Below, in pieces: positions 13,688 to 32,522 of a stretch of 64,000 bases of DNA. A program made the position numbers and the translations under genes. A model generated the notes under the pieces. That model was not told where the DNA came from and did not search any database. It was given only the letters and a program-made list of their open reading frames with translations. How positions within the stretch are numbered: the first letter of the stretch is position 1; each line of letters starts with the position of its first letter. Source of the DNA: Bradyrhizobium sp. CB82 (GTDB lineage Bacteria; Pseudomonadota; Alphaproteobacteria; Rhizobiales; Xanthobacteraceae); contig NZ_CP121650.1 in assembly GCF_029714405.1 (NCBI RefSeq), positions 8,375,001 to 8,439,000 on the forward strand, written 5' to 3'.

Positions 13688-13689
13688 CG

Positions 13690-13850
13690 TCTTCCCCTCC
13701 CTGAACGGAGGGGATTTTCCGAGGAGCCTTAATTTGAGCGGCTCTACGAGATTTGCGGCGAACGGGGACATCCACCGCGGGCCGCATTCCGGCCGTGAGA
13801 ATGTTGCGGGCTGCGTTCACGTCGGCATGCGCCTCGTGTCCGCAAATCGT
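13690..13850 (-). pseudogene. IS605-type TnpB C-terminal fragment
   Basis: The minus strand reads ICGHEAHADVNAARNIL followed later by [11 protein letters not shown], the zinc-ribbon end and terminal residues of TnpB/OrfB proteins of IS200/IS605 elements. Only about 50 residues remain. They abut the end of the nodV-like gene and a P450 remnant. Confidence 0.75.
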
Positions 13851-13869
13851 CGCAGGCGAAACGTGCGTG

Positions 13870-14530
13870 CGTCGATAGAAATGCGTGTCAGCGCGCCGCC
13901 GATTAAACCCGGGAAGATCACCTGCGAGGCGTCGCCGCGCCTGCGTGCGATGGACGTCTGCCAACGCATAATCTCGGACACAGCGCTCGACAGCAGCATA
14001 GGATTGTCTCGTAGCTTTCGTAGCTCGGACGGGTTCTGGTTCGTGAACAAGAGGCCACCGCTAATCGAATTGCGCTTGGTGTCGTTTCCGCCCACAATCA
14101 GGAGGATAAGATTGCCAAGGAACTCTCGTGAGTCCATATTTCGGGTCGCGGGTGAATGCGCCATCATCGAAATCAAGTCGAGCCGAGGCTCGGCATCTGC
14201 GTCGTCAACCCAGTTGAAGGTCTCATTGCACGGCAAGCCGTGAAAAATCGCTCTACCGCGACTTAAGGCCCGGAGGAAGATGTTCCGCTGGCACATCGAC
14301 AGTGGTGACGCCTTGCTCTGACGAGAACACTTTATGATTTGTATCGACCGCTATGATGTCGCGGTATTTGGTTATCGACCAATATGGGCCGTACGGACTG
14401 TCTTGACAGTAGTGCACGTGATCTTCCCTTCGCAGCCGCTCGAAGTAAGGCCATATGCTATCGTCTTGAAAGCGTTTAGACTCGCTTATGTCCAAACCAC
14501 TCAGCTGGATGTTCCACGGATCATCGCGTC
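13870..14530 (-). pseudogene. CYP153-like cytochrome P450 remnant
   Basis: Two parts in different frames. The upstream part ([20 protein letters not shown], then [20 protein letters not shown]) is a P450 N-terminal region very like CYP153 alkane hydroxylases. The downstream part (EFLGNLILLIVGGNDTKRNS, then NPSELRKLRDNP and VSEIMRWQT) is the I-helix and K-helix region. About 100 codons between them are missing, and the heme-binding Cys region is absent because the TnpB fragment replaces it. The I-helix has GGNDTK where GGNDTT is usual. It is clearly non-functional. The exact 5' end is not resolved. Confidence 0.75.
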
Positions 14531-15360
14531 CGTGATCTGCTTGTAACGTATCTATGAGTTTCTCCCGGCGCTGGTCGCCCGACTCTTGGTTCGCCCCCGC
14601 TCTTGCTCCTGAGTGTAGGCAGCGGAAGATATCCGAAAGTAGAGCGCACGCTCCCTACCATTTCCCGGAGGAGCGCAAGGTTGCTTTCACTAGTATATTT
14701 AGTGACACGGCCTCGCCTAATCGCAGCTTGCATCGCTGACCGACTGGCGAAGAGGACATGGCTGGCCATAAGCGGCCATGGACTTAAGATCGCTGAGTGC
14801 GATGTCTTCACATACGCCTGCGTTTTGTTGGTCGGCAGCACGACCTTCGAGAGTGAAATGTGGAAGGGTTGATTGTGATCGCCAAGGGAGATGAGTTCTC
14901 ACGAACTATGCAGCGGTAGGCCAGCCTGTAGCGGGCCAGCAATGCGGGACGTTCTGGGGAGTTGCCGAATCGAGGCGGAAGCAGGCCTATCGAGGTCCGC
15001 TCTACGGGAGCTTAAACGTTGATGCAACGATCCGCTTTAGGGATTCGATTGACCGCATTGTATGCCGTTACGTTTGAGACGCCTTGTCCGATTGCAGTTC
15101 CCTCATATGCGCGTGGCAAGCTCAAGCTTACGGTCGGGGCGGGAAACGTCGCTGAGATTGCCGTCGTCTTCGCCGACGCACACCCCACCGGAGGCGGAAC
15201 TGGTCCACAGCCGAATACTTGCAGAGCAGAATTTGTTCGTTGTTGTGAAATCCCGGCCTGCTCCGGGGCGATGCTAGTTGACACCCTAAACTTGCCGAAC
15301 GACCTGCTTCGGAAGAGCCTGGAGTAGCTAGAGAGGACACTCGGGTGCGAGAGGAAAGCC
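14531..15360. other. Intergenic, no supported gene
   Basis: A plus-strand frame at 15019-15327 (102 codons) was considered, but it has no family resemblance and no good RBS. Confidence 0.35.
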
Positions 15361-15780
15361 GTGACGCCTCACTGGGAATACCAGCTTAGATTTGATGTAA
15401 GCGATTCGGCTGCGGCGGAAGCGATACGACTAAGACGCCAAGAGCCGAAGTTGGGGCCATTGTTCGATATCCTCGTATCCCATCGTGCCGCGCCAAAATG
15501 TCTGTTCGATGCCTTTGCCGAGTATGTGGCCGCCGGCGAAAAATACGGCGTCGAGCGGTATCCGCTCTACGAATGGACAAAGGCGACGATCGAGAATCCG
15601 GCGAAGCGAGAGAAGTACTTGAAGAACTTCGCAGTCTACGTGGACGACCGCGAAGTCTATGCCAAGGCAACTGCCGATGCATTGGAGAGAGCCCTGCAGC
15701 CGCTGGTCAGCTGCGGACTGATTGCGCGGATAATCAAGTACGACACCAATCCCGTCAACAATCCGCAGCCGCCAGAGTGA
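15361..15780 (+). CDS. Conserved hypothetical protein
   Basis: A 139-residue soluble, acidic protein starting at GTG, with AGAGGA 6 nt upstream. It has no signal peptide or membrane segment. Notable stretches are RYPLYEWTKATIENPAKREK in the middle, FAVYVDDREVYAKATADALE, and the Pro/Asn-rich tail KYDTNPVNNPQPPE. It resembles hypothetical proteins I associate with rhizobial accessory regions, but no function is known and none is proposed. Codon use is regular throughout, unlike the debris on both sides, which supports it being a live gene. Confidence 0.6.
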   Translation: MTPHWEYQLRFDVSDSAAAEAIRLRRQEPKLGPLFDILVSHRAAPKCLFDAFAEYVAAGEKYGVERYPLYEWTKATIENPAKREKYLKNFAVYVDDREVYAKATADALERALQPLVSCGLIARIIKYDTNPVNNPQPPE

Positions 15781-15839
15781 TGAAAACTGCCTGTCCGGAA
15801 GCAGTGCTCTCTTTCGGCCACAGTTGAATGGTGAGCCGT

Positions 15840-16008
15840 CGTTCGCGCGCTCACACCGAAGCGGTTTGCGCAATGCGTGCTGGTCAACCCGACAACGTCA
15901 GCAATACGGCTCTCGCGCAATCGGCCTCCCCGTGACCGTGCGAGGCTGCAAGGTCCGCAGTGCCGCCAGCTGCTGTTCACTCGCCACGACTGGTGATTTA
16001 CCTGACAT
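15840..16008 (-). pseudogene. IS630-family transposase N-terminal fragment
   Basis: It begins MSGKSPVVASEQQLAALRTL at 16008, the usual start of rhizobial IS630-type transposases. The continuation is split over three frames: AVLLTLSG in one, then LTSTHCANRFGVSARTT in another, in place of the family helix-turn-helix region. Only the first ~55 residues survive, with at least two indels. Confidence 0.6.
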
Positions 16009-16235
16009 GCCCTACCTCCGCGAGTCAGCGTGAAGACGGAATCACGCCCGGCATCCGTTGGCTAATATGATGAAACCTGCTTCGTTCAACACTGATCGGG
16101 ACAACCCGCGGCTTCAGCTTCGCCCCTTATGGCTACGATGAACTGGAAATCATCCCTTCGAAAAAGTCTCTCAATTTCTCTCAAGGGCGCTGACGGCGAA
16201 GAGACTGAGGGCAATAGTCTAAGCGGTTTCGCAGT
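16009..16235. other. Intergenic, no supported gene
   Basis: No gene is seen between the IS630 remnant and the sigma-54-like element. Confidence 0.35.
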
Positions 16236-16251: not shown

Positions 16252-16708
16252 TAAGAAGCCTTACTCAGAATAGCTCAATGGGAGACGAGGTGATACCTCA
16301 TAAACGATGTTGCCTAATCTCGACTTCGACGCGCGACGCTTGCTAACGTGCTCGGCTGTGCCGGGAGCCCGGTTCAAGCGCCGCCATCGCACGATGTTCG
16401 CATCGATCGCGTGCCGTGACTTCTTCGCACTTGCAATCTCAAAGCATTCTTGTCGTTTCTTTCGAGCGGGCTGCCGAACGTTGTCGACGCCAAGAAAGTC
16501 GACGCTTCCTTTAGGAAGGGCAGGATCCAGATGACCACCGCGGAGCCTTCGTCCGAAGCGGCCGTCGAAGGCGGCCTTCTGAGGCAGGAGGCAAGCCCGG
16601 AACGCGAACCAAAAGCGTCCGAAAAAACCTCCGTGGTGCATCCAGTCTGCTCTCGTTCAGAGGTATCGGTACTGTGCTCTACCCTTGCAACTCCCCGAAA
16701 ACGACATC
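16252..16708. other. Intergenic, no supported gene
   Basis: The 5' region of the GNAT gene. Overlapping short frames show nothing recognisable. Confidence 0.35.
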
Positions 16709-17296
16709 ATGACAGTGGAGTCGGACGTCACCTCTGCGAACGCAAGCATTCGGGCGAGCACCGTCTGGACAATTGTGCTCGGCTTTGCCGCCGATCCGTT
16801 GATGCGTTGGAGTTGGCCTGACCCAGGGCAATATCTTAGGAGCATGCCTCAATTCATCAACGCCTGTGGCGGAGGAGCATTCGAGCATGGCACCGCGTAC
16901 GTCACGGGCGAGAGTCGCGCCGCGGCCCTGTGGCTGCCTCCCGACGTGCAGCAAGATGAGGATGCGCTGGACGCAATCATGGCGCTGTCCCTGCGCCCGG
17001 AGATCACCGAAGATATGGCACACCTACGGCAGGGAATGGCCGAACATCACCCCCCCGAGCCACATTGGTATCTGCCGCTCATTGCCGTTGATCCAAACTG
17101 GGTCGGACAAGGGCTTGGCACATTGCTGATGAAATACGCTCTTCAACGATGTGATGAGCAGGGCATCGCTGCCTACCTCGAAAGTTCGAATCCGGACAAC
17201 ATTCCCTTCTACCAACGTCACGGCTTCAAGGTTATTGGAGAGATACAGCACGGTTCTTCGCCACCACTCACGCCGATGTTGCGAACGGCTTATTGA
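16709..17296 (+). CDS. GNAT-family N-acetyltransferase
   Basis: A 195-residue protein. The acetyl-CoA loop is LIAVDPNWVGQGLGTLLMKY, with the QGLGT pyrophosphate-binding turn, followed by AYLESSNPDNIPFYQRHGF, the typical end of the GNAT fold. An N-terminal region with LWLPPDVQQDEDAL resembles the GNAT group found near antibiotic and toxin genes. It should acetylate an amine on a small molecule or peptide; the substrate is unknown. The frame opens upstream at 16685, but the ATG at 16709 is the likelier start. It lies 1 kb before the NRPS on the same strand, so a tailoring or self-protection role is possible but unproven. Confidence 0.75.
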   Translation: MTVESDVTSANASIRASTVWTIVLGFAADPLMRWSWPDPGQYLRSMPQFINACGGGAFEHGTAYVTGESRAAALWLPPDVQQDEDALDAIMALSLRPEITEDMAHLRQGMAEHHPPEPHWYLPLIAVDPNWVGQGLGTLLMKYALQRCDEQGIAAYLESSNPDNIPFYQRHGFKVIGEIQHGSSPPLTPMLRTAY

Positions 17297-18095: not shown

Positions 18096-18111
18096 TGTTC
18101 GGGGCCAGACA
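18096..18111. promoter_or_regulatory. NifA upstream activator site
   Basis: TGTTCGGGGCCAGACA is a perfect TGT-N10-ACA NifA site. Its centre is about 95 bp upstream of the transcription start expected from the sigma-54 element at 18174-18189, the normal working distance for NifA. Confidence 0.75.
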
Positions 18112-18173
18112 ATGAACACACGAGGCCCTGCCCCGGTCGACGCAAAGCATACGCATCCGTCCTTTGGCACAGT

Positions 18174-18189
18174 TGGCACGTCTGATGCT
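18174..18189 (+). promoter_or_regulatory. Sigma-54 (RpoN) promoter of the NRPS cluster
   Basis: TGGCACGTCTGATGCT matches the -24/-12 consensus TGGCACG-N4-TTGCW at all fixed positions but one, with GG and GC correctly spaced. The expected start near 18200 gives a leader of about 90 nt before the NRPS ATG. Confidence 0.75.
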
Positions 18190-18291
18190 GAGAGCTGGTA
18201 GGGTTCAGTTCACCGAGCGTCGATCACTGCCGGCGGGCCGTTGCATCGATGGGCTCCCAACAATTTTCTGATTTAAGGGCCGCACAAAGCG

Positions 18292-21200
18292 ATGGATGGC
18301 GTGACACGTACGGCTACCGACGATCGATCCAGCAAGAATCAGTTTGTGGAATGTCTGCCGATCGACGCGATCATGGCGATCGACCGCATTGCAGGATCGG
18401 ATCCAGAGAGGGTTGCGCTGAGGGTCGGCGCGGGCGAACTCACCTACAAGGAGCTGCGATCAAGATCGGATGCCCTCGCAAGGACGTTACAAGAGCATGG
18501 CGCTCAGGGCGCGGTCGTCGGCTATTTGGGTGAGCGAGACCTCGACTGGGCGACGGCGGTCGTCGCAATTTTGAAGGCGGCATCAACGTACCTGCCGCTC
18601 GATCCATCGTTACCGGCTTCGCGTACATCATTCATGATCGAGCAGAGCCGCTGCGCTTTGATTATTGGCCCACACCAGCTGGATTCGCTCAACCTGTTAC
18701 AGGCGAATAGCAAAGTCGCCGCGCAATTCATATCCATAGAGGCCGCGTTACGACATGGCCAGATTTCGTCTGTCGTGCCGTCATCGAACGAGGATGGACT
18801 CGCCTACATTCTGTTTACGTCTGGTTCGACGGGCCAGCCTAAGGGCGCAATGATCGAGCGCGCAGCCCTAAACAATCATCTGGCGGAGAAAACTAATGCC
18901 CTAGCCCTCACTCGGACGGATTGCATCGCGCAGACGGCATCGCATTGTTTTGACATCTCGTTGTGGCAGCTTCTGGCAGGGCTTTGCGTCGGAGGCTGCA
19001 TCGCGATCCTTGATGATGCGACATTGAAATCGCCAGCATCCCTTCTCAAAGCAATTCAAGGGTACGGCGTGACGGTTGTTCAATTCGTTCCGTCGATGCT
19101 TGCAATATTTATTGAATATCTGCAGTCGCTTGCGGCGCCTGAGCGAGCTCTGGACGGTTTGCGGATTATCTCTACGGTCGGAGAGCCTCTAACACCCGGA
19201 CTGGCGCGCGCGTGGCTTGCCTTGTATCCCCGGGTTCCCATTCTCAACCACTACGGACCGACCGAGTGCGCGGACGGCGTTACACATCATCTGGTTTCGG
19301 TGCCGCCTGCGCCGGCTGACCTTTATGTGCCGATCGGCAAGCCGATTTCTAACCTTGAGGTTTATGTCGTCGACGGATCGCGGCTGTGCAACACGGGAGA
19401 GGTCGGCGAAATCTGTGTTAGCGGTGTTGGCGTCGCTGCTGGTTACGTCAATGACGATGTCCGCACCAATGAAGCCTTTGTGCCAAATCTGTTCTCAAAC
19501 GACCCGTCATTCCGGCGTCTATACAGGACAGGTGATCTCGGGCGCATTCGTTCCGATGGCCTTTTGGAATGTCTCGGTCGAAGGGACCGTCAGGTCAAAA
19601 TCCGCGGGCACAGAATTGAGCTCGGAGAAATCGAGGCCCGTCTCTCCGCTCATCATTCGGTACGTGGCGCCGTCGCGGTCGCCTCCGCCTGCGCAGGCGT
19701 AAAGCTAATGGCGAGGGACATAACCGGGGTCGCGGGGGACACCGGATCGAGACGACTCATCGCGTATGTATCAGCTCCCGCTGAACTGGCGGAAGGCGAG
19801 CTTCGGAACTTTCTTGCCGAAGCGCTTCCCACCTACATGCTGCCAGAGAGGATCATCCACGTCGACCGTATTCCGCTGACCAAAAACGGAAAGGTCGATT
19901 TTGGAGCATTGCCGGACCCGACCAGTGTTCGCCCTCCATTGCCGACGCCATTCGAGGAACCGCAAACAGGACTCGAAGCCCAGCTGCGTCGAATTTGGTC
20001 CGCCGTTCTGCGTATTGAGAACATTGGCGTGAACGATCAATTCATAAGCCTCGGCGGAGATTCGCTCCGGGCAATGCTCATATTGGGCCAGTTACAGACC
20101 CAACTCGGAGTGAGAACGGATTTCAGGATGGTGCTGAATGGAACGATCCGATCTCTCGCGGCTTCGATCTCGGGCCGAATCGACTCCAAACCGTGCACAG
20201 CCCCGACCTACGGAAAGCTTACGCGCTCGCCTCTGACGCGAGTTCAGGAGCACCTATGGTTTCTCTCGCAGCTCGATCCGTCTGCCAGGAACTACGTCAT
20301 TCAAGGCGGCCTGCGAATAAGGGGAACCATCGATCTGGCCGCGTTCAATCGCGCCTGGACCGATGTCGTTCATTCCCATCAGGCACTTTCGGCCCGCTTT
20401 GTCGACGAGGACGGTCCGGTTCAGCTTTTTGATGCTCCGCAATGCGCACGTCTTGAATTGATTGACGCGTCTCATCTCACGGCGCAGCAAGGTGAGGAGC
20501 TGATCGCAGAGTTGCGGCGCACAGAGCTGAACGGAAACTTTGATCTCAGCCAAGGCCGTCTGTTTCGCGCGCGCATGATCCGTTTTGGCTCTGACAACCA
20601 TCTCATACTGATCACCGCTCACGAAATTATCATCGACGCCTGGTCGATCTCTGTTCTCATCAGGGACCTTCGACAACGGTACGTAGATGCGGCTGCGTTT
20701 TTGCCAGAGAACCGCGCATCACTCTCGACCTACGCTCTCTGGGAGAAGCAACACGTTACGCCGGAGACGCTGTCCAACCAACGTAGCTATTGGCGTCGCC
20801 AGATTGGTGATTATCCGCCAGTGCTTTCGCTTGGAACGGGCAAAGCTCGGCCGCAGACAAATTCCTACCGCGGCGCCTCGCATGCGGTACTGCTTGGCAG
20901 CGACCTCTCCAATCAGGTACGGGAATTTGCGCGCCGACATAGGTGCACCACGTCGACAACACTCCTCGCATGCTTCAAGCTGCTACTGAAGATGTATAGC
21001 GGTCAGAACGACATTATCGTTGGCACACCGCACGTCGTACGAGATCAACCTGGCAGCACTGAAATTGTTGGCTTCTTCCTCAATATGCTGCCAATCCGCA
21101 CCGCGATCGATGTCGACCAGTCGTTTGCGGTTCATGCCTTACGCATCCAGGACTTGGTCAGCGATGCCATCGCAAATTCAGCATATCCATTCGGCTGGAT

Positions 21201-24200
21201 GGTAAGGGATATCCGGCTACATCGCGAGGCCGGACGCTCACCGATCTTCCAGGTCATGTTCAACATGTATTCCGAGGCCGCGGAGCCACTTGGCCAACAT
21301 GAGTTGGATCTGACATTCCGCGAATTTGACACCGGCTATGTAAAATTCGATCTGACATTGTACGCGCAAGATCAGAACGACGAAATTGCCCTCCAGTTGG
21401 CGTATGCCGAGGACATGTTTTCCAGCGATCTGATTGTCCGGATGGTCGACAATCTGCGCTGTCTGATTGCAGCCTGCGTGGAGAAGCCGCTTGCGCCCAT
21501 TAAAGACCTGAGCTGCCTTAGCGCGTCAGACGTCACTATGCTGGACTCGCTGGAAGGCTCGGCGCAGCCATATGAGGTTGAATGTCCGCTTGTCGAAGCG
21601 TTCGATCAGATCAGCGTCTCTAGTTGCAGCCGGGTGGCATATTTTGGTGATTTCGGAGAGATCACATTCGGCCATTTGCGCCAGCGCGTAACAGCTATCA
21701 GGTCGTTGCTGCAGGCTTCCGACGTCGGGGCTGGCGATATGGTCGCTATCCTGGTTGATCGGTCGCCTGACGTGGCCGCTGCTTTTCTTGCGGCGCGAGC
21801 CTTGCAGTCCATTGTTGTCCCAATATCGCCGGATTATCCGCGTCATCGGATCGAACATATCCTGCGAGATACTCAGGCAAAGCTGTTGGTCCACGCAAAT
21901 GCCGCTGACCTTGGTTTTGACATGCCGTCGATTTGTCTATTGAACCTAGAAGAGTGCGACGCGCCCGCGTACGATTTTGAGCGCAGCGACAAATCATCCG
22001 ATCAGGGAATTGCGAGCCTTATATACACGTCGTCCTCGACCGGGAACGCCAAGGGGGTTCTGATACCGGAATCGGCAATTCTCAATCGACTGAACTGGAT
22101 GTGGCGAAGCTTTCGCTTCAACAGTACCGACGTGATGGTTATCCAGAAGTCCGCATCACTTGTTGCGTCCGCTTGGGAGTACTTTGGGGGGCTTCTAAGA
22201 GGTGTGCCCGCGCTGATCCTGACCCAAGAGCAGTTGCTGGATCCAGATCTATTATTGTGCATGTTGGTAAGACATCGCGTGACACACTTATTTGCCTCGC
22301 CCCCACTCCTTTCCGGCCTCATTGCTTCCCAGGAACGACACCCGCGACCGACTGCCTTGCGGTTGGTCACAAGCAGCGCCGAACCGATGCCTGCCTCGCT
22401 CCCCGTTCGCTGGCGTACGCATTTCCCGGACGTGCCGTTGTGGAACTTCTATGGTGCTACAGAATGTGCGTCGAATGCCGCAATCTACGAAACATCGGAT
22501 GCCGACAACGGCTCGTCGCTCGTCCCCGTGGGGCGCGCAATCGATAACGTCAAACTCTACGTGCTCGATGCCCAGTTGAAGAGAGTCCCTGTTGGAGCCG
22601 CCGGCGAACTCTGCATCGCGGGGCGCTGCGTGAGTGCTGGGTACTGGCGGGATCAAGATCGGACCTGCCGCTGTTTTGTGCCCAATCCGTATGATGACGG
22701 ACAATACAGCATTCTTTATCGAAGTGGCGATATCGCACGCATCTCAACTGGCGGCCTTCTCGAGATTTGCGGCCGATCGGACAACCAGGTCAAGGTGCGG
22801 GGCTTTCGCATCGAGCTAGAGGAGGTCGAAGCGGCCCTTGAGTCTCATCCGGCAATCGCGAAGGCCGCGGTCGTCGCGGACGGCATGGAGGATCATCGTC
22901 GCTTGACCGCTAGCGTGGTTCCGGCTCGCGACAGTCTGAGCTCTGGAGATATTGTTACCTACCTGCGCCAAACATTGCCCTCCTATATGATTCCCGCCGC
23001 CTTCCGTTTGGTTGACAGTATCCCCGTTACAGCGAACGGAAAGATAGATCGTGCTCGCCTGTCGTCCGTTCCTTACCGCGAGGTCGGGCCCGGCCCATCT
23101 GCTGAGCCCCGCACGAGGGAGGAGCATATTCTTGCTGCGATCTGGCAGGATCTATTGGGCGCCAAGCGGGTCGGAATCGATCAAAACTTCTTTGATATCG
23201 GCGGAAACTCTCTTCTGAGCGTGCGCTGCGTCACGCTGGCGCGCAAAGCCGGGCTGGCCCTCACTGTCGACCAACTTTATCGAACACCGACCATCAGGGA
23301 ATTAGCGGCAAACGGCGCGGCGGTTACACCCGATACCTTCCCTACGGGGGGCAGCTCATTGCCAGTCACCCCTGCCATCTCGTCTTGGAACCGTCTCGCC
23401 GGCTTCGGTGAGCATTTCAACATCGGCGATCTCTTCTTCTTGCCCCGGGGACTACTGAATATTCAAATTCTCGAGCGTGCCCTTGCCCATGTCATGGATA
23501 GGCACGAAGGCCTCAGACTCCGCATTGCCCGAACCGACGATGGTCTACGGCTGACAATTGGACCTTCCGTGGCTGAGCGCCTCGTGGAGCAGATCGATCT
23601 TGTCGGAATGACCGGTCTAGAGCAGCGTAAGGCAATCGAGAGCATCTCAGCCAGGCGTCAACATATGTTTCGGTTTGACGGCCAGACGCCTCTTGTTAAC
23701 GTCACGGCGTTCCGCACCTCGGAAAGCGGCGATTACCATCTGCTCTTCCTTTTGCATCATTTTGTAGCGGACGGGATAGGCTATCGACTGTTCCTGGAAG
23801 CAATGGATGCGGCGTATAGCGCCCTTGCCTCGGGCCACGCCGTGACTGGTCCCGAGAACATACAAATGCTCTTCCCATGGTTGAAGCGCCTTGAGCACTA
23901 CGCGAACAGCGAAGCGCCAGCTGAACTCTCATACTGGGAGGGGATTGACTACCATCAGTTCGATTTACATATCAGCGATACTTCATCGGGGGCTGCGAGC
24001 TTTTCGGAAGTGACCGCAAGAGAGCTTCACTATGCGGGCCTTGAGGGTCGCTTGAATGAAGCAGCTTGCCGGTCCCTTTGGGAAGATCAGGCCAAGTACT
24101 ATCTGGAGATTGACAAGGAAGCGACAGCGCGTCTCCTCAATATTGCGGCCAGATCGGCGCAGTGTCAGGACTTTGATGTGTTCCTTGCCGCCCTATCTGG

Positions 24201-24747
24201 CGCCATTGGACGCGTTTTCGGCAGCTATTCGCTCTGGATTGATAGCCTCACCTCCACCCGAGGTCGGCTGTTTGATGATCTCGATCCATCTCAGATTATC
24301 GGCGTTATCAGCGAGATCGTTCCGCTTCCCTTGGTTCTCACGGGCACGGAGCCCCGGCCCGATCGTGCTCGTTCAATTTACCGCCAGCGCAGTGCCCTGC
24401 CGCGCAGCGCAATAGGCTTTCGCGCCATGAAATTCCTGAACCGAGATCCTGCCGTGCGGAGCCGGATCGATCGCCTGCCCTTACCCCGAATTGGATTGAA
24501 TTATCGAGTGGGTTTGCAGCGCCATTTTCCACGGCACTTCCTAGCCAAGGACCCTTCTCCACTCTGGATCGGCAAAGACATGGATGAAGCAGGCGTGAAC
24601 TACCTCTTCTGGTTCAGTGTCGGCTATGAAGCCGGCCAGCTACAGATCGAAACGAGATATAATCCAACCCAAGTGGGTTATGAGGCGACCCGCAATCTTT
24701 GCACGGTGTTGCGACAGGAGCTGTTACAGACGATCAGCGAATTCTAA
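18292..24747 (+). CDS. Two-module non-ribosomal peptide synthetase (A-T-C-A-T-C)
   Basis: A 2151-residue synthetase. A1 (about 30-540) has FTSGSTGQPKG, NHYGPTE, YRTGDLGRI and NGKVDF. T1 has LGGDSL near 590. C1 has AHEIIIDAW at 776-784. A2 (about 1115-1600) has YTSSSTGNAKG, NFYGATE, YRSGDIARI and NGKIDR. T2 has IGGNSL near 1637. A final C domain has the canonical LHHFVADG (His 1822-1823). There is no thioesterase or reductase. Aligned by eye to GrsA, the A1 pocket reads D-I-W-Q-S-V-H-D-G. In A2 the Asp that binds the alpha-amino group is Val (V-A-W-F-T-S-F-S-N), suggesting a beta-amino or non-amino-acid substrate. C1 has Glu where the catalytic second His is expected. The product is probably a dipeptide or a coupled amide. 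Confidence 0.93.
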   Translation: MDGVTRTATDDRSSKNQFVECLPIDAIMAIDRIAGSDPERVALRVGAGELTYKELRSRSDALARTLQEHGAQGAVVGYLGERDLDWATAVVAILKAASTYLPLDPSLPASRTSFMIEQSRCALIIGPHQLDSLNLLQANSKVAAQFISIEAALRHGQISSVVPSSNEDGLAYILFTSGSTGQPKGAMIERAALNNHLAEKTNALALTRTDCIAQTASHCFDISLWQLLAGLCVGGCIAILDDATLKSPASLLKAIQGYGVTVVQFVPSMLAIFIEYLQSLAAPERALDGLRIISTVGEPLTPGLARAWLALYPRVPILNHYGPTECADGVTHHLVSVPPAPADLYVPIGKPISNLEVYVVDGSRLCNTGEVGEICVSGVGVAAGYVNDDVRTNEAFVPNLFSNDPSFRRLYRTGDLGRIRSDGLLECLGRRDRQVKIRGHRIELGEIEARLSAHHSVRGAVAVASACAGVKLMARDITGVAGDTGSRRLIAYVSAPAELAEGELRNFLAEALPTYMLPERIIHVDRIPLTKNGKVDFGALPDPTSVRPPLPTPFEEPQTGLEAQLRRIWSAVLRIENIGVNDQFISLGGDSLRAMLILGQLQTQLGVRTDFRMVLNGTIRSLAASISGRIDSKPCTAPTYGKLTRSPLTRVQEHLWFLSQLDPSARNYVIQGGLRIRGTIDLAAFNRAWTDVVHSHQALSARFVDEDGPVQLFDAPQCARLELIDASHLTAQQGEELIAELRRTELNGNFDLSQGRLFRARMIRFGSDNHLILITAHEIIIDAWSISVLIRDLRQRYVDAAAFLPENRASLSTYALWEKQHVTPETLSNQRSYWRRQIGDYPPVLSLGTGKARPQTNSYRGASHAVLLGSDLSNQVREFARRHRCTTSTTLLACFKLLLKMYSGQNDIIVGTPHVVRDQPGSTEIVGFFLNMLPIRTAIDVDQSFAVHALRIQDLVSDAIANSAYPFGWMVRDIRLHREAGRSPIFQVMFNMYSEAAEPLGQHELDLTFREFDTGYVKFDLTLYAQDQNDEIALQLAYAEDMFSSDLIVRMVDNLRCLIAACVEKPLAPIKDLSCLSASDVTMLDSLEGSAQPYEVECPLVEAFDQISVSSCSRVAYFGDFGEITFGHLRQRVTAIRSLLQASDVGAGDMVAILVDRSPDVAAAFLAARALQSIVVPISPDYPRHRIEHILRDTQAKLLVHANAADLGFDMPSICLLNLEECDAPAYDFERSDKSSDQGIASLIYTSSSTGNAKGVLIPESAILNRLNWMWRSFRFNSTDVMVIQKSASLVASAWEYFGGLLRGVPALILTQEQLLDPDLLLCMLVRHRVTHLFASPPLLSGLIASQERHPRPTALRLVTSSAEPMPASLPVRWRTHFPDVPLWNFYGATECASNAAIYETSDADNGSSLVPVGRAIDNVKLYVLDAQLKRVPVGAAGELCIAGRCVSAGYWRDQDRTCRCFVPNPYDDGQYSILYRSGDIARISTGGLLEICGRSDNQVKVRGFRIELEEVEAALESHPAIAKAAVVADGMEDHRRLTASVVPARDSLSSGDIVTYLRQTLPSYMIPAAFRLVDSIPVTANGKIDRARLSSVPYREVGPGPSAEPRTREEHILAAIWQDLLGAKRVGIDQNFFDIGGNSLLSVRCVTLARKAGLALTVDQLYRTPTIRELAANGAAVTPDTFPTGGSSLPVTPAISSWNRLAGFGEHFNIGDLFFLPRGLLNIQILERALAHVMDRHEGLRLRIARTDDGLRLTIGPSVAERLVEQIDLVGMTGLEQRKAIESISARRQHMFRFDGQTPLVNVTAFRTSESGDYHLLFLLHHFVADGIGYRLFLEAMDAAYSALASGHAVTGPENIQMLFPWLKRLEHYANSEAPAELSYWEGIDYHQFDLHISDTSSGAASFSEVTARELHYAGLEGRLNEAACRSLWEDQAKYYLEIDKEATARLLNIAARSAQCQDFDVFLAALSGAIGRVFGSYSLWIDSLTSTRGRLFDDLDPSQIIGVISEIVPLPLVLTGTEPRPDRARSIYRQRSALPRSAIGFRAMKFLNRDPAVRSRIDRLPLPRIGLNYRVGLQRHFPRHFLAKDPSPLWIGKDMDEAGVNYLFWFSVGYEAGQLQIETRYNPTQVGYEATRNLCTVLRQELLQTISEF

Positions 24748-24759
24748 AATCATCCATGA

Positions 24760-26154
24760 ATGAGCCGCAAACGGAAGTTGCCGTTGAGGGCGATCGCGAT
24801 GCCAAAGAACATCGATCTATCGGACCCCAATCTCTCGAGCCTTATCCTGCGGCTCGCCATTCCATCTATTGTTGGCTTATCGATCAACGCGTTACACCAG
24901 GTCGTCAACGCGATCTTTGTTGGCGCACTTGGCACGCAGGCGATCGCAGCCGTCAGCATGACCTTTCCGATCGTGGTCCTGCTCACGGCAGTCGGACAAG
25001 GGATTGGCGTTGGAACAGCCTCGTTCATATCTCGTCATCTTGGCGCTGGTGAGTACCTTGAGGCGAGTCGTGGCGCCAGTACTGCACTGGCGTTCACCGC
25101 TCCGATCGGCATCATGTTTACCGCCGCTCTGCTTTTAAATCTGCGAGGGATCTTCGTAACGCTGGGAGCCACGCCAACCATCATGCCCCTGGCGCTCGAC
25201 TATGCGGCGACGATTTTGTTCGGGTATACCCTGATGCTTCTGAACATCGTCAACGGCTTCATCGTCCGAGCCGAAGGCAACACACGATTCAGCATGTGGA
25301 CGATGATGACCGCCTTCATACTGAACGCCGCGCTTGATCCTGTCCTCATATTCCTGCTGGACCTCGGCGTGCGAGGCGCAGCTTTGGCAACGCTGGTATC
25401 TCAGATCGCTGCTATTAGCCTCTATATCGCGTATTTTACAAAGCTCCGCGGGATGGTCCTCGTCAGGATCTCTCACATCTCGTTGCGAGCGGCTCGCATC
25501 AGACAGCTCGCGCTCATAGGAGCGCCAGCGACCATGACCAGTATTTTATCCGCCATTGCCTCTATGCTCTTGTACGGAGCTGCTGCCCCGTTCGGCGACG
25601 ATTCCATCGCGGCAGTGGGAATAGCTGTGCGATTGCTGGTGATCGGCGCACTGCCTATCACCGGCTTCTGCATAGGTTCTCAAGCTGTCCTGGGGTTCGG
25701 TTGGGGCGCACGCGACTTTGCTCGGGTATTGAAGGCTGCGAAGTTCATGCTCTCCGTGGCTTTTGCTCTTTCCGTTGCATATTCTGCGGCCGTTGTGATT
25801 TTGGCCCGACCTTTGGTCAGGTTGTTCAGCGATAGTGAGAAGGTCACGGAAATCGCCGTCTCAAGCTGCATCGTCTTTCATCTCTTTTTTTGGCTTTTTG
25901 GTATTCAGAGCTTCGTGACGACCATGCTTCAGTCGTTCGGGAGGGCACGCCTCAGCGCGGTTGTGTCCTTGGCGAGGCAGAGCTATCTCTTCATACCGGC
26001 CGTACTGTTATTCCCGGTCATCTGGGGTTTCAACGGGCTGTTGGCCAGTCAAGCATTCGCTGAGCTGGGCGCCGGAATGATCGCGCTGTTTGTCATGTTC
26101 AACCAGTTCGCCGAGCTACGACGGCACCCGACTTCAAGAGCGATGACGAGTTGA
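24760..26154 (+). CDS. MATE-family exporter of the NRPS cluster
   Basis: A 464-residue membrane protein with about twelve hydrophobic helices arranged as two similar halves, as in MATE/DinF-type exporters. Characteristic stretches are LAIPSIVGLSINALHQVVNA near the N-terminus, FVGALGTQAIAAVSMTFP, and in the second half GIAVRLLVIGALPITGFCIG. These pumps expel drugs or metabolites using Na+ or H+ gradients. It starts 13 bp after the NRPS stop, so it is co-transcribed and is the natural exporter of the peptide product. ATG 24799 (MPKNIDLSDPN) is an alternative start that gives a more typical N-terminus. Confidence 0.92.
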   Translation: MSRKRKLPLRAIAMPKNIDLSDPNLSSLILRLAIPSIVGLSINALHQVVNAIFVGALGTQAIAAVSMTFPIVVLLTAVGQGIGVGTASFISRHLGAGEYLEASRGASTALAFTAPIGIMFTAALLLNLRGIFVTLGATPTIMPLALDYAATILFGYTLMLLNIVNGFIVRAEGNTRFSMWTMMTAFILNAALDPVLIFLLDLGVRGAALATLVSQIAAISLYIAYFTKLRGMVLVRISHISLRAARIRQLALIGAPATMTSILSAIASMLLYGAAAPFGDDSIAAVGIAVRLLVIGALPITGFCIGSQAVLGFGWGARDFARVLKAAKFMLSVAFALSVAYSAAVVILARPLVRLFSDSEKVTEIAVSSCIVFHLFFWLFGIQSFVTTMLQSFGRARLSAVVSLARQSYLFIPAVLLFPVIWGFNGLLASQAFAELGAGMIALFVMFNQFAELRRHPTSRAMTS

Positions 26155-26238
26155 CCTGACAACGGACATCATCGCGGCCAGAGCATTGAGCCCACATGGT
26201 CGGCAGGTGTTGCGATCCAAGAAAGTGAAGAGCGTAAC

Positions 26239-26952
26239 GTGCAAGAGTCATGGAGCTATAGCGGTCTTGAGCGGCTGTGCTTGCGATCGAGCCGTCAGCT
26301 GCTGCCGTCGAACGTTGTTTTGCGAACCTGTGCCGGTACTTGGAGCGGCGGAGCTGAACTCCTGCCCTCGGAGGAAGCAGCCGTGGCCATGGCCGTCGAC
26401 AGAAGAAGGCATGAGTTTGCGGTCGGACGTGCCTGTGCAAGAGCAGCGTTGTCCGAGTTAGGCGTTCCTCCTTGCCCGATCCCCAGCGGCCCACATCGTG
26501 AACCCCTTTGGCCGCCAGCTGTGGTTGGGAGCATAACGCATTGTCCGGGATTCTGCGCAGCAGCTGTCGCCTTCCGCGCGAGCTATCATTCAATTGGAAT
26601 TGACGCAGAGATCGACGAGGCGCTGCCACCGGGTCTGTTGGCATACATCGCAGTCGACGAAGAGCAATCGTGGCTCACCGGCGCCCCCGGGGACATCCAT
26701 TGGGATCGGCTGCTCTTCAGCGCCAAGGAGAGCATCTTCAAGGCGTGGTTTCCGCTCACCGGGGCGTGGCTGGGGTTCCAGGACGCTATGGTGACCTTTA
26801 GTGCAAATGATCATGCATTCCGGGCTCGCCTTTCTCGTCCCCTACCACATACTTGCGGCGGTACGCGTGAGCTTCGCGGTCGCTTTATGTTCGCGGACGG
26901 GCTGATTTTCACTGCCGTCTTGGTTCAAGTCGAGGATAAGACAACGCCCTGA
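26239..26952 (+). CDS. 4'-phosphopantetheinyl transferase (EntD/Sfp type)
   Basis: A 237-residue enzyme starting at GTG. It should transfer phosphopantetheine from CoA to the Ser of the two carrier domains of the NRPS, making it active. Motifs: FAVGRACARAALSELG, GSITHCPGFCAAAVA, the Mg-binding SIGIDAEIDEALP, and LLFSAKESIFKAWFPLT with the KExxxK signature near residue 160. The order and length match EntD-like members. It is the third gene of the cluster, 84 bp after the MATE stop. Having a dedicated transferase means the cluster can act without the host's own enzyme, as expected for transferred DNA. Confidence 0.9.
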   Translation: MQESWSYSGLERLCLRSSRQLLPSNVVLRTCAGTWSGGAELLPSEEAAVAMAVDRRRHEFAVGRACARAALSELGVPPCPIPSGPHREPLWPPAVVGSITHCPGFCAAAVAFRASYHSIGIDAEIDEALPPGLLAYIAVDEEQSWLTGAPGDIHWDRLLFSAKESIFKAWFPLTGAWLGFQDAMVTFSANDHAFRARLSRPLPHTCGGTRELRGRFMFADGLIFTAVLVQVEDKTTP

Positions 26953-28128: not shown

Positions 28129-28941
28129 TCATGATTCATGCAGAACCCTTCTCCGAGGCTCAGACCATTTGCGTTCGGCAAACGCCTTTTCGACCACGAA
28201 TTGCGCGGGCTCACCGTCATTGCCTTCAACAAAGCCCTTCGCGATCAGCAGTTCGCGGGCATCGCGCACCAGCGCAGGGCTGCCGCAAATCATGACACGG
28301 TCATGCTGCGGATCGAGCTCCGGCAGCTCGATCTCTGTACACAGCTTGCCTGACGCAATCAGATCGGTGATCCGGCCACGGTTGTGGAAGGGATCGCGCG
28401 TCACGGTTGGGTAATAGATCAGCTGGTAGCGCACGAAGTCGCCGAGCAATTCGTCGCTCGGCAGTTTGTCGGTGATCATCTCGCCATAGGCGAACTCGGC
28501 GACGCATCGGCAGCCATGCAGCAGCACGACATTCTCGAACCGCAAATAGGTCTCAGGGTCCTTAATCACGCTCAGGAACGGCGCAAGTCCTGTGCCTGTG
28601 CCGATCAGATAGAGGTTGCGCCCGTGCTCGAGATTGTCGATGACCAATGTTCCGGTTGTCTCGCAGCTGACGAGGATCTCGTCCCCCGCCTTCAGATGCT
28701 GCAGACGCGAGGTTAAGGGACCGTCCGGCACCTTGACCGCGAAGAATTCCAGCCGGTCCTCGTACTGGCCGCTGGCCAGGCTGCAGGCACGTAGCAGCGG
28801 CTTCTCATCAACCTTGAGTCCGATCTCGGTGAATTCGCCGCTACGGAAGCGAAACGACGGATCCCGCGTAGTGGTGAAGCTAAAGAGATTGTCGGTCCAG
28901 TGATGAACGCTCAGCACGCTCTCCCGGTTAAAAGTGCTCAT
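28129..28941 (-). CDS. fpr: Ferredoxin-NADP+ reductase (Fpr type)
   Basis: A 270-residue flavoprotein that moves electrons between NADPH and ferredoxin or flavodoxin. The FAD-binding barrel includes LLRACSLASGQYEDRLEFF, where RACSLAS is the RxYS-type FAD motif with Cys in place of Tyr. The NADP domain has YLIGTGTGLAPFLSVIKDPE and the MICGSPALVRDAR segment. The C-terminus continues about 15 residues past the usual VEKAF end (AERKWSEPRRRVLHES). In a nodule setting it could feed ferredoxin for nitrogenase. It could also reduce the radical-SAM enzyme QueE, encoded by the next operon upstream on the same strand. No good sigma-54 site was found in front of it. Confidence 0.9.
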   Translation of the reverse strand: MSTFNRESVLSVHHWTDNLFSFTTTRDPSFRFRSGEFTEIGLKVDEKPLLRACSLASGQYEDRLEFFAVKVPDGPLTSRLQHLKAGDEILVSCETTGTLVIDNLEHGRNLYLIGTGTGLAPFLSVIKDPETYLRFENVVLLHGCRCVAEFAYGEMITDKLPSDELLGDFVRYQLIYYPTVTRDPFHNRGRITDLIASGKLCTEIELPELDPQHDRVMICGSPALVRDARELLIAKGFVEGNDGEPAQFVVEKAFAERKWSEPRRRVLHES

Positions 28942-29649
28942 CTCACTGCTCCGGCGAAGATTAGAGCATTGACGCGTACCGGCGCTTGCGCAGTTTGCCG
29001 GCTCACTCTGGGGCGATTAAGTGGTCCTGAAGGAAGAACTGGATGTGAGAGCCAATGGCGCAAATGCAGCCCATAGTGAACGAACAATTTATCGTTTCTC
29101 ACCTGAATGGGCTTTCTCGGCCTCAGATTGGTGCGCTTCGTACAAACAACCTGCAATCTCAATTTGAACTTGCGGCTCCGTTGCAATGCTGTTGGTACGC
29201 GCACTCAACGAGGATCTGGCTGTCGGAAGGCCCCGGCGTGAAAACAGACGCTGATTATGCGCTATGATCCAATGTGATTGGTGCAATGAGCAGGGTGTTC
29301 TCGCTTAAATTCTGTGTTTAGCTGCGTTTTTCGACGAATTTCAGCGCCAGAGCGGATTGACCTACTCCTGACCGGTCCCGACTAGCGATGGCCGGCGAGC
29401 GTTGTCACGACGCGGCATACTCGGTCCGGCCAGACCGCATCATCCTTCAGCGAGCCAAGGAAACGAATACCAGCCAGGTTTCCTCATGGCATGACGCGCG
29501 CCAACTTCTCTCTTTCCAGATAACGGCCATGGCATCCGACAGCAGTCCCTGACAAATCACGAAGTGCTGGAACAGGGTTTTTGCGCGGTCCACCATTGTG
29601 CTGCGGGAGATGCCGTTCCGACTATGTCAATAGACCGCCTGGACCAGGT
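28942..29649. other. Intergenic with a possible protein remnant
   Basis: On the minus strand at about 29445-29605 an open stretch (STMVDRAKTLFQHFVICQGL and onward) reads like a protein but lacks a start and a recognised family. The rest is featureless. Confidence 0.35.
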
Positions 29650-30354
29650 CTAACAGGAAAACTCCCGCCAGCCCTTTGCACGCACCGCACAGGCGGGACA
29701 TTCACCGCAGCCAAACCCCCAGTCGTGCCGGGCACCGCGTTCGCCGAGATAACAGGTGTGTGAGTGCTCGCGGATCAGGTCGACCAGTTCCGCTCCGCCG
29801 AGCTCGGAGGCAAGCCGCCAAATCGCCGCCTTGTCCAGCCACATCAGCGGCGTGTGTAGATGAAAGTCCCTCAACATGCCATGGTTGAGCGCACTGTTCA
29901 GCGCGCGGATGGTCACGTCCCGGCAATCGGGGGCGCAGGAATGATCTTTCTCGCACATGCCGCCAACGATATGAGAAATCCGGCGCGGGTAGGCGAGCGC
30001 CGCGGCAAAGGTCAAAAAGATCAGATTGCGGCCTGGCACGAACGTGTTGGGCATCCCGTCCGCGCCTATCTCGATCGCCATCTCGCGGGTCAGTGCGGTC
30101 TTTGATATCGCAGCCAGTGTGGGGATCTCAAGCGTATGCTTGTCGCCGAGCTTGCTCGCCCAGTCTACGCGCAGCTTCTTCAGTCCGTTCAGCAACTGAT
30201 CGCAGCAGGTCAGCTCGATCGCATGGCGTTGGCCATAGGCAAAGCCGACGGTCTCAACCCGGGCAAAGCGCGACAGCGCCCAAGCGAGGCAGGTAGCGGA
30301 ATCCTGTCCGCCAGAAAACAAAACCAGCGCGGCTCCGGATGTGAAATCGGTCAT
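29650..30354 (-). CDS. queC: QueC, 7-cyano-7-deazaguanine synthase
   Basis: A 234-residue ATP-dependent enzyme that turns 7-carboxy-7-deazaguanine into preQ0. The PP-loop [13 protein letters not shown] is near residue 13. The zinc site is the C-terminal Cys cluster [17 protein letters not shown], with CYLGERG before it. [19 protein letters not shown] is also typical. The frame opens to 30453, but [16 protein letters not shown] at 30354 fits the family start. It is the last gene of a minus-strand folE-queD-queE-queC set, 176 bp after queE. In Sinorhizobium a queC gene has been tied to normal symbiosis (established knowledge), which gives this copy added interest. Confidence 0.93.
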
Positions 30355-30530
30355 TGGGAGGATTCGCTTAGAATGTGAAGAGTTCAGATCAGGCGCGCTT
30401 GGCAATGGCGAACAACGGCAAGAAGCCTGCGATGAATGCCGCTTTCCCTTCATTGAATTCAGACTTAGAGGACGCGATTCATGATCGTCTCAAAGGTGAA
30501 GCCGCAGAACGCTTGAACGCGCACGGGTTC

Positions 30531-31187
30531 TTACCGCACGCCGAGAAACTTATGTGTCTGAATGCTGACACGCCAGTCGCGCGCGGTCGCCTCCTGAATG
30601 CAAAGCTTCGTCGCCTTCCGGCTTTGGCTCAAGGGCTGCAGCCATATCATCGGCATGAACTCGCGCGGGATGTTGAGGGCCAGGAGCTTCTCGATATCAG
30701 CAGGCTTGCCCACGCAATGTTTGATCTCGTTGCCACGCCGCAGCGCTTCATCCAAAACAACAAGCCCGCCGGGCATGCCAATTTTCGGGCTGATGGTTAC
30801 CCACGTGCAGGGGTGCACCTGAATGGCATGGGTGCCCGATGTCTCCACCTGCACCGAGTAGCCAGACTTGATAAGTAGCGTCGTCAATGGCTGAAGGTCG
30901 TACGCTGCGGGCTCGCCACCCGTGATCACGACATGCCGAGCCCGAAACCCCTCTACGGCGAGCAGCATTTCCTCCGGCGACATCATAGCCCAGGTGTTGG
31001 CGTCCTCGACCTTGGCCGTGATCTCGGCTATCGATACTTGGTGTGCTGGATCTGCGACCCATGTATGCTTGCTGTCGCACCAAGGGCAACCAACTGGGCA
31101 GGCCTGTAGCCGCAGGAACACGGTCGGCGTGCCGCTCTTGCAGGCTTCGCCTTGAATAGTTTCAAAGATCTCGTTGACCGGCAGCAC
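30531..31187 (-). CDS. queE: QueE, 7-carboxy-7-deazaguanine synthase
   Basis: A 218-residue radical-SAM enzyme. NEIFETIQGEACKSGTPTVF precedes the cluster motif LQACPVGCPWCDSKHTW, whose CxxxCxxC binds the 4Fe-4S centre. VVITGGEPAAYDL is the SAM-binding GGE motif. It converts 6-carboxytetrahydropterin, the QueD product, into carboxy-deazaguanine. GTG 31187 is chosen because family proteins begin just before NEIFETIQGE; this overlaps the end of queD by 26 nt, suggesting coupled translation. The enzyme needs reduced flavodoxin or ferredoxin, which the nearby reductase could supply. Confidence 0.93.
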   Translation of the reverse strand: MLPVNEIFETIQGEACKSGTPTVFLRLQACPVGCPWCDSKHTWVADPAHQVSIAEITAKVEDANTWAMMSPEEMLLAVEGFRARHVVITGGEPAAYDLQPLTTLLIKSGYSVQVETSGTHAIQVHPCTWVTISPKIGMPGGLVVLDEALRRGNEIKHCVGKPADIEKLLALNIPREFMPMIWLQPLSQSRKATKLCIQEATARDWRVSIQTHKFLGVR

Positions 31188-31638
31188 GGCTCGTTCCCCG
31201 ATAGATCGCGCTGTTCGCACCGTGCTCTTTGACTTCGACAGATGCAAGCCGGCAACGCGGAGCAAGTCGCTCCGTCAGCAGCCACTTGCTCGCGATGCCG
31301 TAGACGTGCTCGGCAAACTTTTCGCAGCCGACAGCAGGTAGCACAACGATATCCGCCACGCCGCGTCGCGCCGCTTCGTGGAACCATTCAAGCTCCGGAT
31401 CGTCCGCAGCTACGACGGTCTTATGGTCAAACGTGTCTTCGAGGATCGCTTTCAGCTCTTTGAGGCCGCCAAAATCGACGACCCAATTCTTGTCGTCTAG
31501 GGTGTCGGCCTCGAACTCGAAGCGAAATGATAACGAGTAACCGTGCAGCAGACGACAGTGTGACAGCGCGCGCCACTGGCGAAACGTAGCGGATAGTCCG
31601 ATTTCATGACCGTATGTCTTCGTCGATAGGTACGTCAC
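31162..31638 (-). CDS. queD: QueD, 6-carboxy-tetrahydropterin synthase
   Basis: A 158-residue member of the 6-pyruvoyl-tetrahydropterin synthase family. It belongs to the subgroup with LSATFRQWRALSHCRLLHGYSLSF (as written in two overlapping stretches), where SHCRLLHGYS supplies the catalytic Cys and zinc His residues. NWVVDFGGLKELK, TFDHKTVV and EVKEHGANSAIY complete the active site. It uses dihydroneopterin triphosphate made by FolE. The GTG start overlaps the folE stop (GTGA), so the two are translationally coupled. Confidence 0.92.
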   Translation of the reverse strand: MTYLSTKTYGHEIGLSATFRQWRALSHCRLLHGYSLSFRFEFEADTLDDKNWVVDFGGLKELKAILEDTFDHKTVVAADDPELEWFHEAARRGVADIVVLPAVGCEKFAEHVYGIASKWLLTERLAPRCRLASVEVKEHGANSAIYRGTSRAAGQRDL

Positions 31639-32303
31639 GGTTGATCCTTGATCAGTGCCATAAATTCGCTGCGCAATGTCCTGTCGTCGCGGAAAGCACC
31701 GCGCATGATGCTGGTTATCATGATGGTGTCAGCCTCGCGAACACCACGCCAGATCATGCATTGGTGCTGCGCCCTAACGATGACGGCCAATCCCTTCGGC
31801 AGGATACGGCGTTCCAGTTCGTCCGCCAGCATAACAGCGGCCTCCTCCTGGATGTGCGGGCGCGACATGATCCAGTTGGCAAGGCGCACAAATTTGCTGA
31901 TACCGATCACTTTTTCGCCGGGCACCACGCCGACCCACATGCGGCCAATCATGGGTACGAGGTGATGCGAGCACGTCGAGCGCACGGCAATGGGACCCAA
32001 CGTGTAGAGTTCGTTCAGGCCGCTCGCGTTCGGGAAGTCCGTAATCTCTGGCGCGGGCTCAAAGCGCCCGGCAAAAACCTCGCGCACGTACATCCTGGCA
32101 ATGCGCTTCGCGGTCGCTTTGGTGTTGTGGTCGCGGCTGGTGTCGATAACCAGGGCTTCAAGCACAGCCTGCACGTGCTGCTCGACCTCGGCTTGGATCA
32201 CCTCAATATCACCAGGCAGCAGGTATTCTGCGATATTGTCGTTTGCCGCAAACGACGCGCCCGCGTCGCGCAGGCGTTCACGAATTGCTTGCGTTGAGCT
32301 CAT
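31635..32303 (-). CDS. folE: FolE, GTP cyclohydrolase I
   Basis: A 222-residue enzyme that opens GTP to give dihydroneopterin triphosphate, the first step towards preQ0 (and folate). Typical motifs: TKATAKRIARMYVREVFAGR, VRSTCSHHLVPMIGRMWVG (zinc Cys and His residues), GISKFVRLANWIMSRPHIQE and AQHQCMIWRGVRE. ATG 32303 is preferred, with AGGAA 5 nt upstream; ATG 32351 lacks an RBS. Being first in a que operon and additional to any housekeeping folE, it is probably devoted to 7-deazaguanine synthesis. The operon is preceded by NifA and sigma-54 sites. Confidence 0.93.
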   Translation of the reverse strand: MSSTQAIRERLRDAGASFAANDNIAEYLLPGDIEVIQAEVEQHVQAVLEALVIDTSRDHNTKATAKRIARMYVREVFAGRFEPAPEITDFPNASGLNELYTLGPIAVRSTCSHHLVPMIGRMWVGVVPGEKVIGISKFVRLANWIMSRPHIQEEAAVMLADELERRILPKGLAVIVRAQHQCMIWRGVREADTIMITSIMRGAFRDDRTLRSEFMALIKDQP

Positions 32304-32522
32304 CAGAATTCCTGTGCCGGGAGCTTCGCTTTTAGTTTGCGTGAACGACATGGTCTGCGATCGTCGTGAAGAACGATGGAGGGACCCGCGATGGACAAAG
32401 CAGGGGAAGTGCCTTACCGGGGCAGTGTTTGGTATCAATTTGCATAGGATCGAGAACTTTCATCTTTCCTGCGTCGTTGACCGAGAGACCACGATTGCCG
32501 AAACGGTCCTTTATAGTCTCCC

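Follow-up and report, generated by a model that had tools for sequence, protein, structure and literature searches.

The 64,000-nucleotide stretch of Bradyrhizobium sp. CB82 DNA analyzed here (contig NZ_CP121650.1, positions 8,375,001 to 8,439,000; hereafter the window) carries a three-gene operon for a nonribosomal peptide synthetase (NRPS), a MATE-family exporter and a 4'-phosphopantetheinyl transferase (PPTase), preceded by a pair of sites typical of NifA- and sigma-54-dependent transcription. From its sequence context, the operon is likely a rhizobial symbiosis operon, driven by NifA and sigma-54 and switched on together with nitrogenase. The promoter prediction is strong both for the window and for orthologous loci in three other genera.

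The upstream activator sequence (UAS) for NifA, TGT-N10-ACA, is present as TGTTCGGGGCCAGACA at 18096-18111 (plus strand), and like sites were found in orthologous loci. It is followed at 18174-18189 (plus strand) by a sigma-54 -24/-12 element, TGGCACGTCTGATGCT, which agrees with the consensus used for scoring, TGGCACG-N4-TTGCW (taken from PMC3538637), at 11 of the 12 specified positions, or at 15 of 16 when N is counted. Its only deviation is ATGC for TTGC, and the GG-N10-GC spacing is intact. The gap between UAS and element is 62 bp, compared to 60-86 bp at the nifH and nifB sites of the same genome, and the end of the element lies 102 bp from the NRPS start codon (18292). Transcription is predicted from -24/-12 promoter geometry to start at 18200 (plus strand), about 12 bp past the GC of the -12 box.

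The NRPS gene (18292-24747, plus strand) encodes 2151 amino acids (aa) with the domain order A-PCP-C-A-PCP-(E-like C), where A stands for adenylation, PCP for peptidyl carrier, C for condensation and E for epimerization. The exporter gene (24760-26154, plus strand, 464 aa) begins 12 bp past the NRPS stop codon, and the PPTase gene (26239-26952, plus strand, 237 aa, GTG start) follows 84 bp past the exporter gene. The window PPTase matches the NCBIfam 4'-PPTase models Npt and PptT with 192 bits, under their curated cut-offs of 370 and 365. An earlier note on this DNA had described the coordinates, match counts and standard spacing of the two sites, their position about 100 bp before the NRPS, and the tight linkage of the three genes; all of these were correct, and the open reading frames (ORFs) were assigned to the claimed families by Pfam.

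The occurrence of the site pair by chance was assessed with a threshold of at least 11/12 specified positions in the element and a perfect UAS lying 40-150 bp ahead of it. When the 700 bp preceding the NRPS were shuffled 20000 times with dinucleotide composition preserved, no such pair arose. The window and related loci, 2.27 Mb of strand-sequence in total, contained 37 such pairs. By inspection of the list, 16 of these mark the start of an NRPS gene; the other 21, about 1 per 108 kb, lie elsewhere, some of them ahead of other operons. Genome-wide, the stricter element TGGCACG-N4-WTGCW gave 20 matches compared to 4 control matches. Among the 19 strict sites with examined upstream sequence (C1:8677769, minus strand, was left out), 5 had a UAS within 250 bp upstream, namely two copies of nifH, nifB, a 515-aa frame and the NRPS described here; the nif genes were named from their sequences. 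Apart from the NRPS site, three of the four strict sites with a UAS are thus nif promoters, which makes NifA/sigma-54 control of the NRPS better supported, as does the presence of the pair ahead of NRPS orthologues from three further genera. A nifA gene is located at C1:7584977-7586638 in the same genome (757.7 bits, above the cut-off).

Orthologous loci and co-occurrence with nodA and nifA

Scanning genome contigs with the terminal domain of the NRPS yielded 38 loci (NRPS loci are labelled L and surveyed genomes G), 35 from Bradyrhizobium, two of which share one B. nanningense contig, and three from Mesorhizobium. A single full-length NRPS frame was present in 35/38 loci, and the frame of L043 was also unbroken. 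A tblastn search of a plasmid collection added 22 records, which came exclusively from rhizobia. Fourteen of them, from Mesorhizobium (3), Sinorhizobium (7) and Rhizobium (4), had 60-80% identity, and the other 8 fell below 60%, at around 30%. Thirteen of the 14 close plasmid loci were examined (AR07 is L040 and had been counted already), together with two from the distant group. In a protein search with 7992 candidates scored, 59 clusters at 59-95% identity were followed by 17 matches at no more than 31%; the organism-named clusters among the 59 were all rhizobial. Orthologues of the NRPS therefore occur in four genera, Bradyrhizobium, Mesorhizobium, Sinorhizobium and Rhizobium.

A full pair, defined as a perfect UAS with an element at 11-12 of 12 positions, was found in 9 of the 38 scan loci, which are six from Bradyrhizobium (L009, L010, L024, L025, L031 and L045, where the UAS is the same or nearly the same and at the same place) and Mesorhizobium L040-L042. 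It was also found in 9 of the 13 plasmid loci (Mesorhizobium L049 and L136 and seven from Sinorhizobium). The element reached 12/12 in L024, L025, L031 and Mesorhizobium L040-L042, L049 and L136; the seven Sinorhizobium loci had 11/12, three of them with A for C at -12, and the four Rhizobium loci were degenerate, with a 10/12 element, G or A at -12 and one mismatch in the UAS. Outside Bradyrhizobium, 12 of 16 loci thus carried a full promoter and 4 a partial one, bringing the loci beyond the window to 18 full and 4 partial. In alignments, the UAS and -24/-12 blocks stood out as conserved amid diverged intergenic sequence. Weaker arrangements were a 9/12 element with the UAS more than 100 bp ahead in L017-L019, and a perfect UAS with a 9/12 element in the two distant loci of the 30% class.

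On a quick, midpoint-rooted tree of 50 proteins (two distant proteins unlabelled; L026, L043, L045 and L136 left out), the promoter label, full and partial together, required three changes and was shared by every one of the 15 orthologues from outside Bradyrhizobium. This distribution is read as an old NifA promoter that was probably replaced in much of Bradyrhizobium, with separate gains as an alternative. Other boxes were searched at the loci without the NifA pair with a tolerance of up to 6 mismatches. A nod-box-like site (2 mismatches) was seen only at L022, on the other strand and 1.1 kb upstream, tts-like sites occurred only with 5-7 mismatches, and no FixK box was found within 3 kb; none of the three boxes was retained as the controller of these loci. 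A degenerate sigma-54-like sequence, GGGCGCGTTGRTTGCG, near -250 in several of them matched at 9/12, with the spacing broken in others, and was not counted.

The exporter gene accompanied the NRPS throughout, with a MATE match downstream in 38/38 scan loci (a fragment in L036) and behind the NRPS in 13/13 plasmid loci. An adjacent PPTase at ≥60% identity was found in only 3/38 scan loci (L009, L010 and L040), with weaker ones in L029 (39% identity) and L045 (a fragment), and behind the MATE gene in 12/13 plasmid loci. Of the NRPS-exporter-PPTase linkage in orthologues, the exporter part was borne out in all 38 scan loci and the PPTase part in few of these. No wider conserved cluster emerged, as only the PPTase among 21 neighbor-gene queries holds its place across genera. 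Near the NRPS in Bradyrhizobium, genes for an outer-membrane protein (22 loci), an MFS transporter (12) and a TauD-like protein (11) recurred at varying positions, and transposase genes lay close to several copies. A GNAT acetyltransferase gene upstream of the window operon (16685-17296, plus strand) was matched in L009, L010, L025 (on the other strand) and partly in L045. In L041 (M. tamadayense), an 832-aa frame with an ATP-grasp ligase-like region and a cytochrome P450 lies downstream of NRPS-MATE at 13670-16168. In L049 (M. huakuii 583), a 12/12 sigma-54 element and a UAS upstream of the NRPS precede genes for a DMT transporter, an argininosuccinate-synthase-related protein and a 2-oxoglutarate (2OG)-Fe dioxygenase (4207-7210).

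Co-occurrence with symbiosis genes was analyzed in 195 Bradyrhizobium genomes, with nifA (above cut-off) in 128 and nodA in 109. The terminal domain was detected in 56 genomes and 49 were kept as NRPS carriers; six with a match of about 70 residues only and G019 with a 35% match were dropped. All 49 carriers hold both nifA and nodA. The NRPS was present in 49/109 nodA-positive genomes, in 0/86 nodA-negative genomes and in 0/19 with nifA and without nodA (hypergeometric probability, kinship ignored, 7.9e-16 for nodA and 4.0e-5 for nodA within nifA-positive genomes). In an order-wide sample it occurred in 2/397 genomes, both Bradyrhizobium. Examples of the distance between NRPS and nifA are about 61 kb (G017), 74 kb (G105) and 111 kb (G114). 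Degraded copies still keeping the promoter pair were found on two plasmids. In L047 (B. elkanii USDA 94), the UAS and a 12/12 element are followed by the beginning of the NRPS gene, which breaks off at an IS3-family transposase gene; L048 (B. barranii) retains both sites and roughly 500 bp of the NRPS gene. A genome that we take to be USDA110 retains a 69-residue remnant of the terminal domain at 87% identity.

Synthetase domains and published precedent

The A1 domain (18385-19911, plus strand) has the predicted pocket D-I-W-Q-S-V-H-D-G-K, and A2 (21649-23064, plus strand) has V-A-W-F-T-S-F-S-N-K with Val for Asp at 235; the limits of both are approximate, and the pocket positions were assigned by eye from the PheA motifs. 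The C1 domain (20227-21528, plus strand) has HExxxDA replacing HHxxxDG, and the terminal C/E-superfamily domain (23359-24744, plus strand) retains HHFVADG and has LTSTRGR at the place of EGHGRE. No thioesterase domain was found in the 2151-aa protein by Pfam. Conservation was followed in 36 full-length proteins (the window and 35/38 loci) plus 14 further ones. The predicted A1 pocket residues and the C1 HE motif were identical in all 50, two of them at 39% identity, so that the standard HHxxxDG was missing from the internal C domain in 36/36 and 14/14 proteins. The A2 pocket was kept with few exceptions in the 36, and position 235 was Val in the other 14, one Ile excepted. Both carrier domains had the carrier-serine motif GG[DN]SL in 36/36, and the terminal motif was HHFV[AV]DG across the same set. 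These variant motifs, with HE kept even at 39% identity, point to an altered rather than a lost function.

By comparison with known adenylation domains, the Val at this position of A2 suggests a substrate without an alpha-amino group. The terminal domain had its best Protein Data Bank (PDB) matches in chains of bacitracin synthetase 3, PvdL and tyrocidine/gramicidin synthetase 1, which we take to be E-type domains. At the place of EGHGRE in PvdL, the orthologues have LTSTRGR or close variants; the terminal domain lacked an EGHGRE-type motif and scored 17.4 bits against TIGR01720 (cut-off 74.2). Its predicted structure, with a mean predicted local distance difference test (pLDDT) score of 42.9, was too poor for use. 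Two-module A-T-C-A-T-C synthetases (T, thiolation domain) without a thioesterase are represented by fungal diketopiperazine synthetases and thaxtomin synthetases. The window NRPS shares their domain order and lack of a thioesterase; it differs in a C1 domain without the second His and in a terminal domain whose best PDB matches are the chains named above. For the small peptide predicted in the earlier note, the NRPS, PPTase and exporter genes were confirmed, and in view of the unusual catalytic motifs the product may be something other than an ordinary peptide.

In Bradyrhizobium diazoefficiens, the NRPS gene blr2108 is listed in the NifA and RpoN regulon, with a transcript 39-fold up in soybean bacteroids (credited in a footnote to Hauser et al. 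2007) and protein up under microoxia by log2 6.5 (PMC6515984, Table 2). It is lowered in nifA nodules (log2 -4.6; PMC4926349, Table 3), and its entry in PMC6515984 leaves the transcript unmarked as changed in free-living microoxic cells. NifA-controlled NRPSs therefore have published precedent. The ORF at 2849-12781 of L151, presumably blr2108 by its strand and position relative to nifA, likewise has a UAS, TGTTGGACAGCTGACA, 45 bp ahead of a -24/-12 element, TGGCACGATACATGCG (10/12). It encodes 3310 aa, compared to 2151 aa for the window NRPS, and at about 32% identity the two are not orthologous. No blr2108 orthologue was found in the window genome, where the first 1000 residues matched only the NRPS described here and one 518-aa frame. 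Rhizobium L128 has, downstream of its copy of the operon (14140 onward), a second NRPS gene with 42.5% identity, in the part compared, to the putative blr2108, and in L128, L131 and L132 a UAS and -24/-12 pair near 13750 (plus strand) precedes the second gene by about 390 bp; the two NRPSs in Rhizobium might work together. The candidate promoters of the Mesorhizobium loti R7A NifA-RpoN regulon likewise consist of a NifA UAS and a -24/-12 sequence, and nifH promoters presented there have A at -12 as in the three Sinorhizobium loci; the term "peptide synthetase" is absent from the main text of that paper (PMC3538637). The literature searched, which mostly did not include subscription papers, gave no description of this NRPS family, of the conservation of its promoter or of the exporter that accompanies it.

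Proposed pathway and rival explanations

At low oxygen, NifA would bind the UAS at 18096-18111 and activate sigma-54 RNA polymerase at 18174-18189, and transcription would run from near 18200 through the NRPS, MATE and PPTase genes. Both carrier domains would be primed by the PPTase or, at loci that lack its gene, by a PPTase encoded elsewhere. The NRPS would then couple an alpha-amino acid selected by A1 to a second acid, probably without a free alpha-amino group, selected by A2, with the E-like terminal domain participating in joining or release. The MATE protein would export the product to the periplasm and hence towards the symbiosome space. NifA dependence and nodule expression are inferred from the promoter, and substrates, chemistry, export and role are proposed from the domains and the genomic setting.

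A number of observations weigh against this proposal. The window element has a mismatch in its -12 box, and roughly 0.8 Mb separates the NRPS gene from nifA and nodA in this genome. A loose whole-genome pattern (CGTGCCA and UAS, 45-75 bp) gave 7 matches compared to 8 in the reversed control, and therefore only the stricter element is informative. The earlier note had named the absence of the sites from orthologous clusters as evidence against its prediction, and this absence was encountered in 29/36 Bradyrhizobium loci (window included) with no pair within 600 bp, against 7/36 with a full pair; among the 29, only L038 had a pair of at least 11/12 within 3 kb, 1.1 kb upstream. Counted by genomes, 7/48 NRPS carriers with examined upstream sequence (G178 left out) had the full pair. 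Frames were interrupted in 5/49 NRPS copies (G142, G144, G162, G178 and G182), and the genome counts take related genomes as independent. The promoter prediction is supported by orthologues in three other genera and by the company of nif promoters, and it is not borne out at most Bradyrhizobium loci; the survey of Bradyrhizobium genomes recovered the NRPS in 49/195, mostly with no such promoter nearby.

The pair may be a chance match, with the operon read from an unrelated promoter. The -12 mismatch, the unenriched loose pattern and the many orthologues without the pair fit this, while the shuffles that never produced it and its full or partial presence at 22 other loci make it very unlikely. 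It is unlikely that another sigma-54 enhancer-binding protein, such as NtrC or a sensor of fatty acids or aromatics, acts here with TGT-N10-ACA as an incidental sequence. In favor of this, an additional 12 hits score above 200 bits against the NifA model and are other likely sigma-54 activators, and 14 of the strict -24/-12 sites have no UAS in the 250 bp upstream. Against it, other genera conserve the UAS itself together with the -24/-12 box, and its company in this genome is mainly nif promoters. That the NRPS is a non-catalytic relic whose metabolite is no longer made is quite unlikely; HE for HH in C1 and the absent E-domain motif would agree with it, and the full-length frames in nearly all loci, L043 included, and the conservation of the variant motifs themselves speak against it.

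A real NifA-driven promoter on an operon that is accessory cargo of symbiosis islands, for instance for an antibiotic-like or siderophore-like product directed against competitors and with no role towards the plant, is a serious possibility, somewhat short of an even chance. It would account for the patchy presence (49/109 nodA-positive genomes), the copies that are broken or reduced to remnants (L026, L045, L047, L048 and six genomes), the nearby transposase genes and the many Bradyrhizobium loci without the promoter; it sits less well with predicted pocket residues kept across four genera and with strict confinement to nodA-positive genomes in the sample. A more ambitious reading, less likely than not, is that nitrogen-fixing bacteroids of Bradyrhizobium, Mesorhizobium, Sinorhizobium and Rhizobium all produce and export one NifA-controlled nonribosomal metabolite of unusual chemistry. 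Its genes would have spread via symbiosis plasmids and islands, the compound would serve as a bacterium-to-plant or bacterium-to-bacterium signal in the nodule, and the NifA switch would be ancestral and replaced in much of Bradyrhizobium. The unrecognised symbiotic metabolite of the earlier note fits the confinement to genomes with nodA and nifA in the sample, and the missing promoter at most Bradyrhizobium loci does not fit it.

We are aware of few small molecules that are specific to the nitrogen-fixing bacteroid. Rhizobia of four genera may be producing a compound in the root nodules of legumes that has been overlooked. A synthetase and exporter under the predicted nitrogenase switch in several genera, and in nodulating strains only within the sampled genus, would constitute a concrete, deletable pathway, and the blr2108 result would become part of a pattern. 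The pathway could have been missed because the genome taken as USDA110 keeps only the 69-residue remnant.

Other features of the window

A second candidate promoter in the window consists of CGGCATGCTGATTGCA (10/12) at 32523-32538 (minus strand) with TGTCTGAATCCCGACA 80 bp upstream, and lies about 85 bp ahead of an ORF for GTP cyclohydrolase I. This ORF opens an operon at 28129-32438 (minus strand) that continues with radical-SAM and QueC ORFs and an ORF for an NAD-binding oxidoreductase, and is possibly a NifA-controlled 7-deazaguanine operon. A 1774-aa frame at 37796-43120 (minus strand) had no Pfam family above the cut-off. The frame at 52397-54268 (minus strand) has leucine-rich repeat (LRR) and NEL E3-ligase domains, like rhizobial type III effectors.

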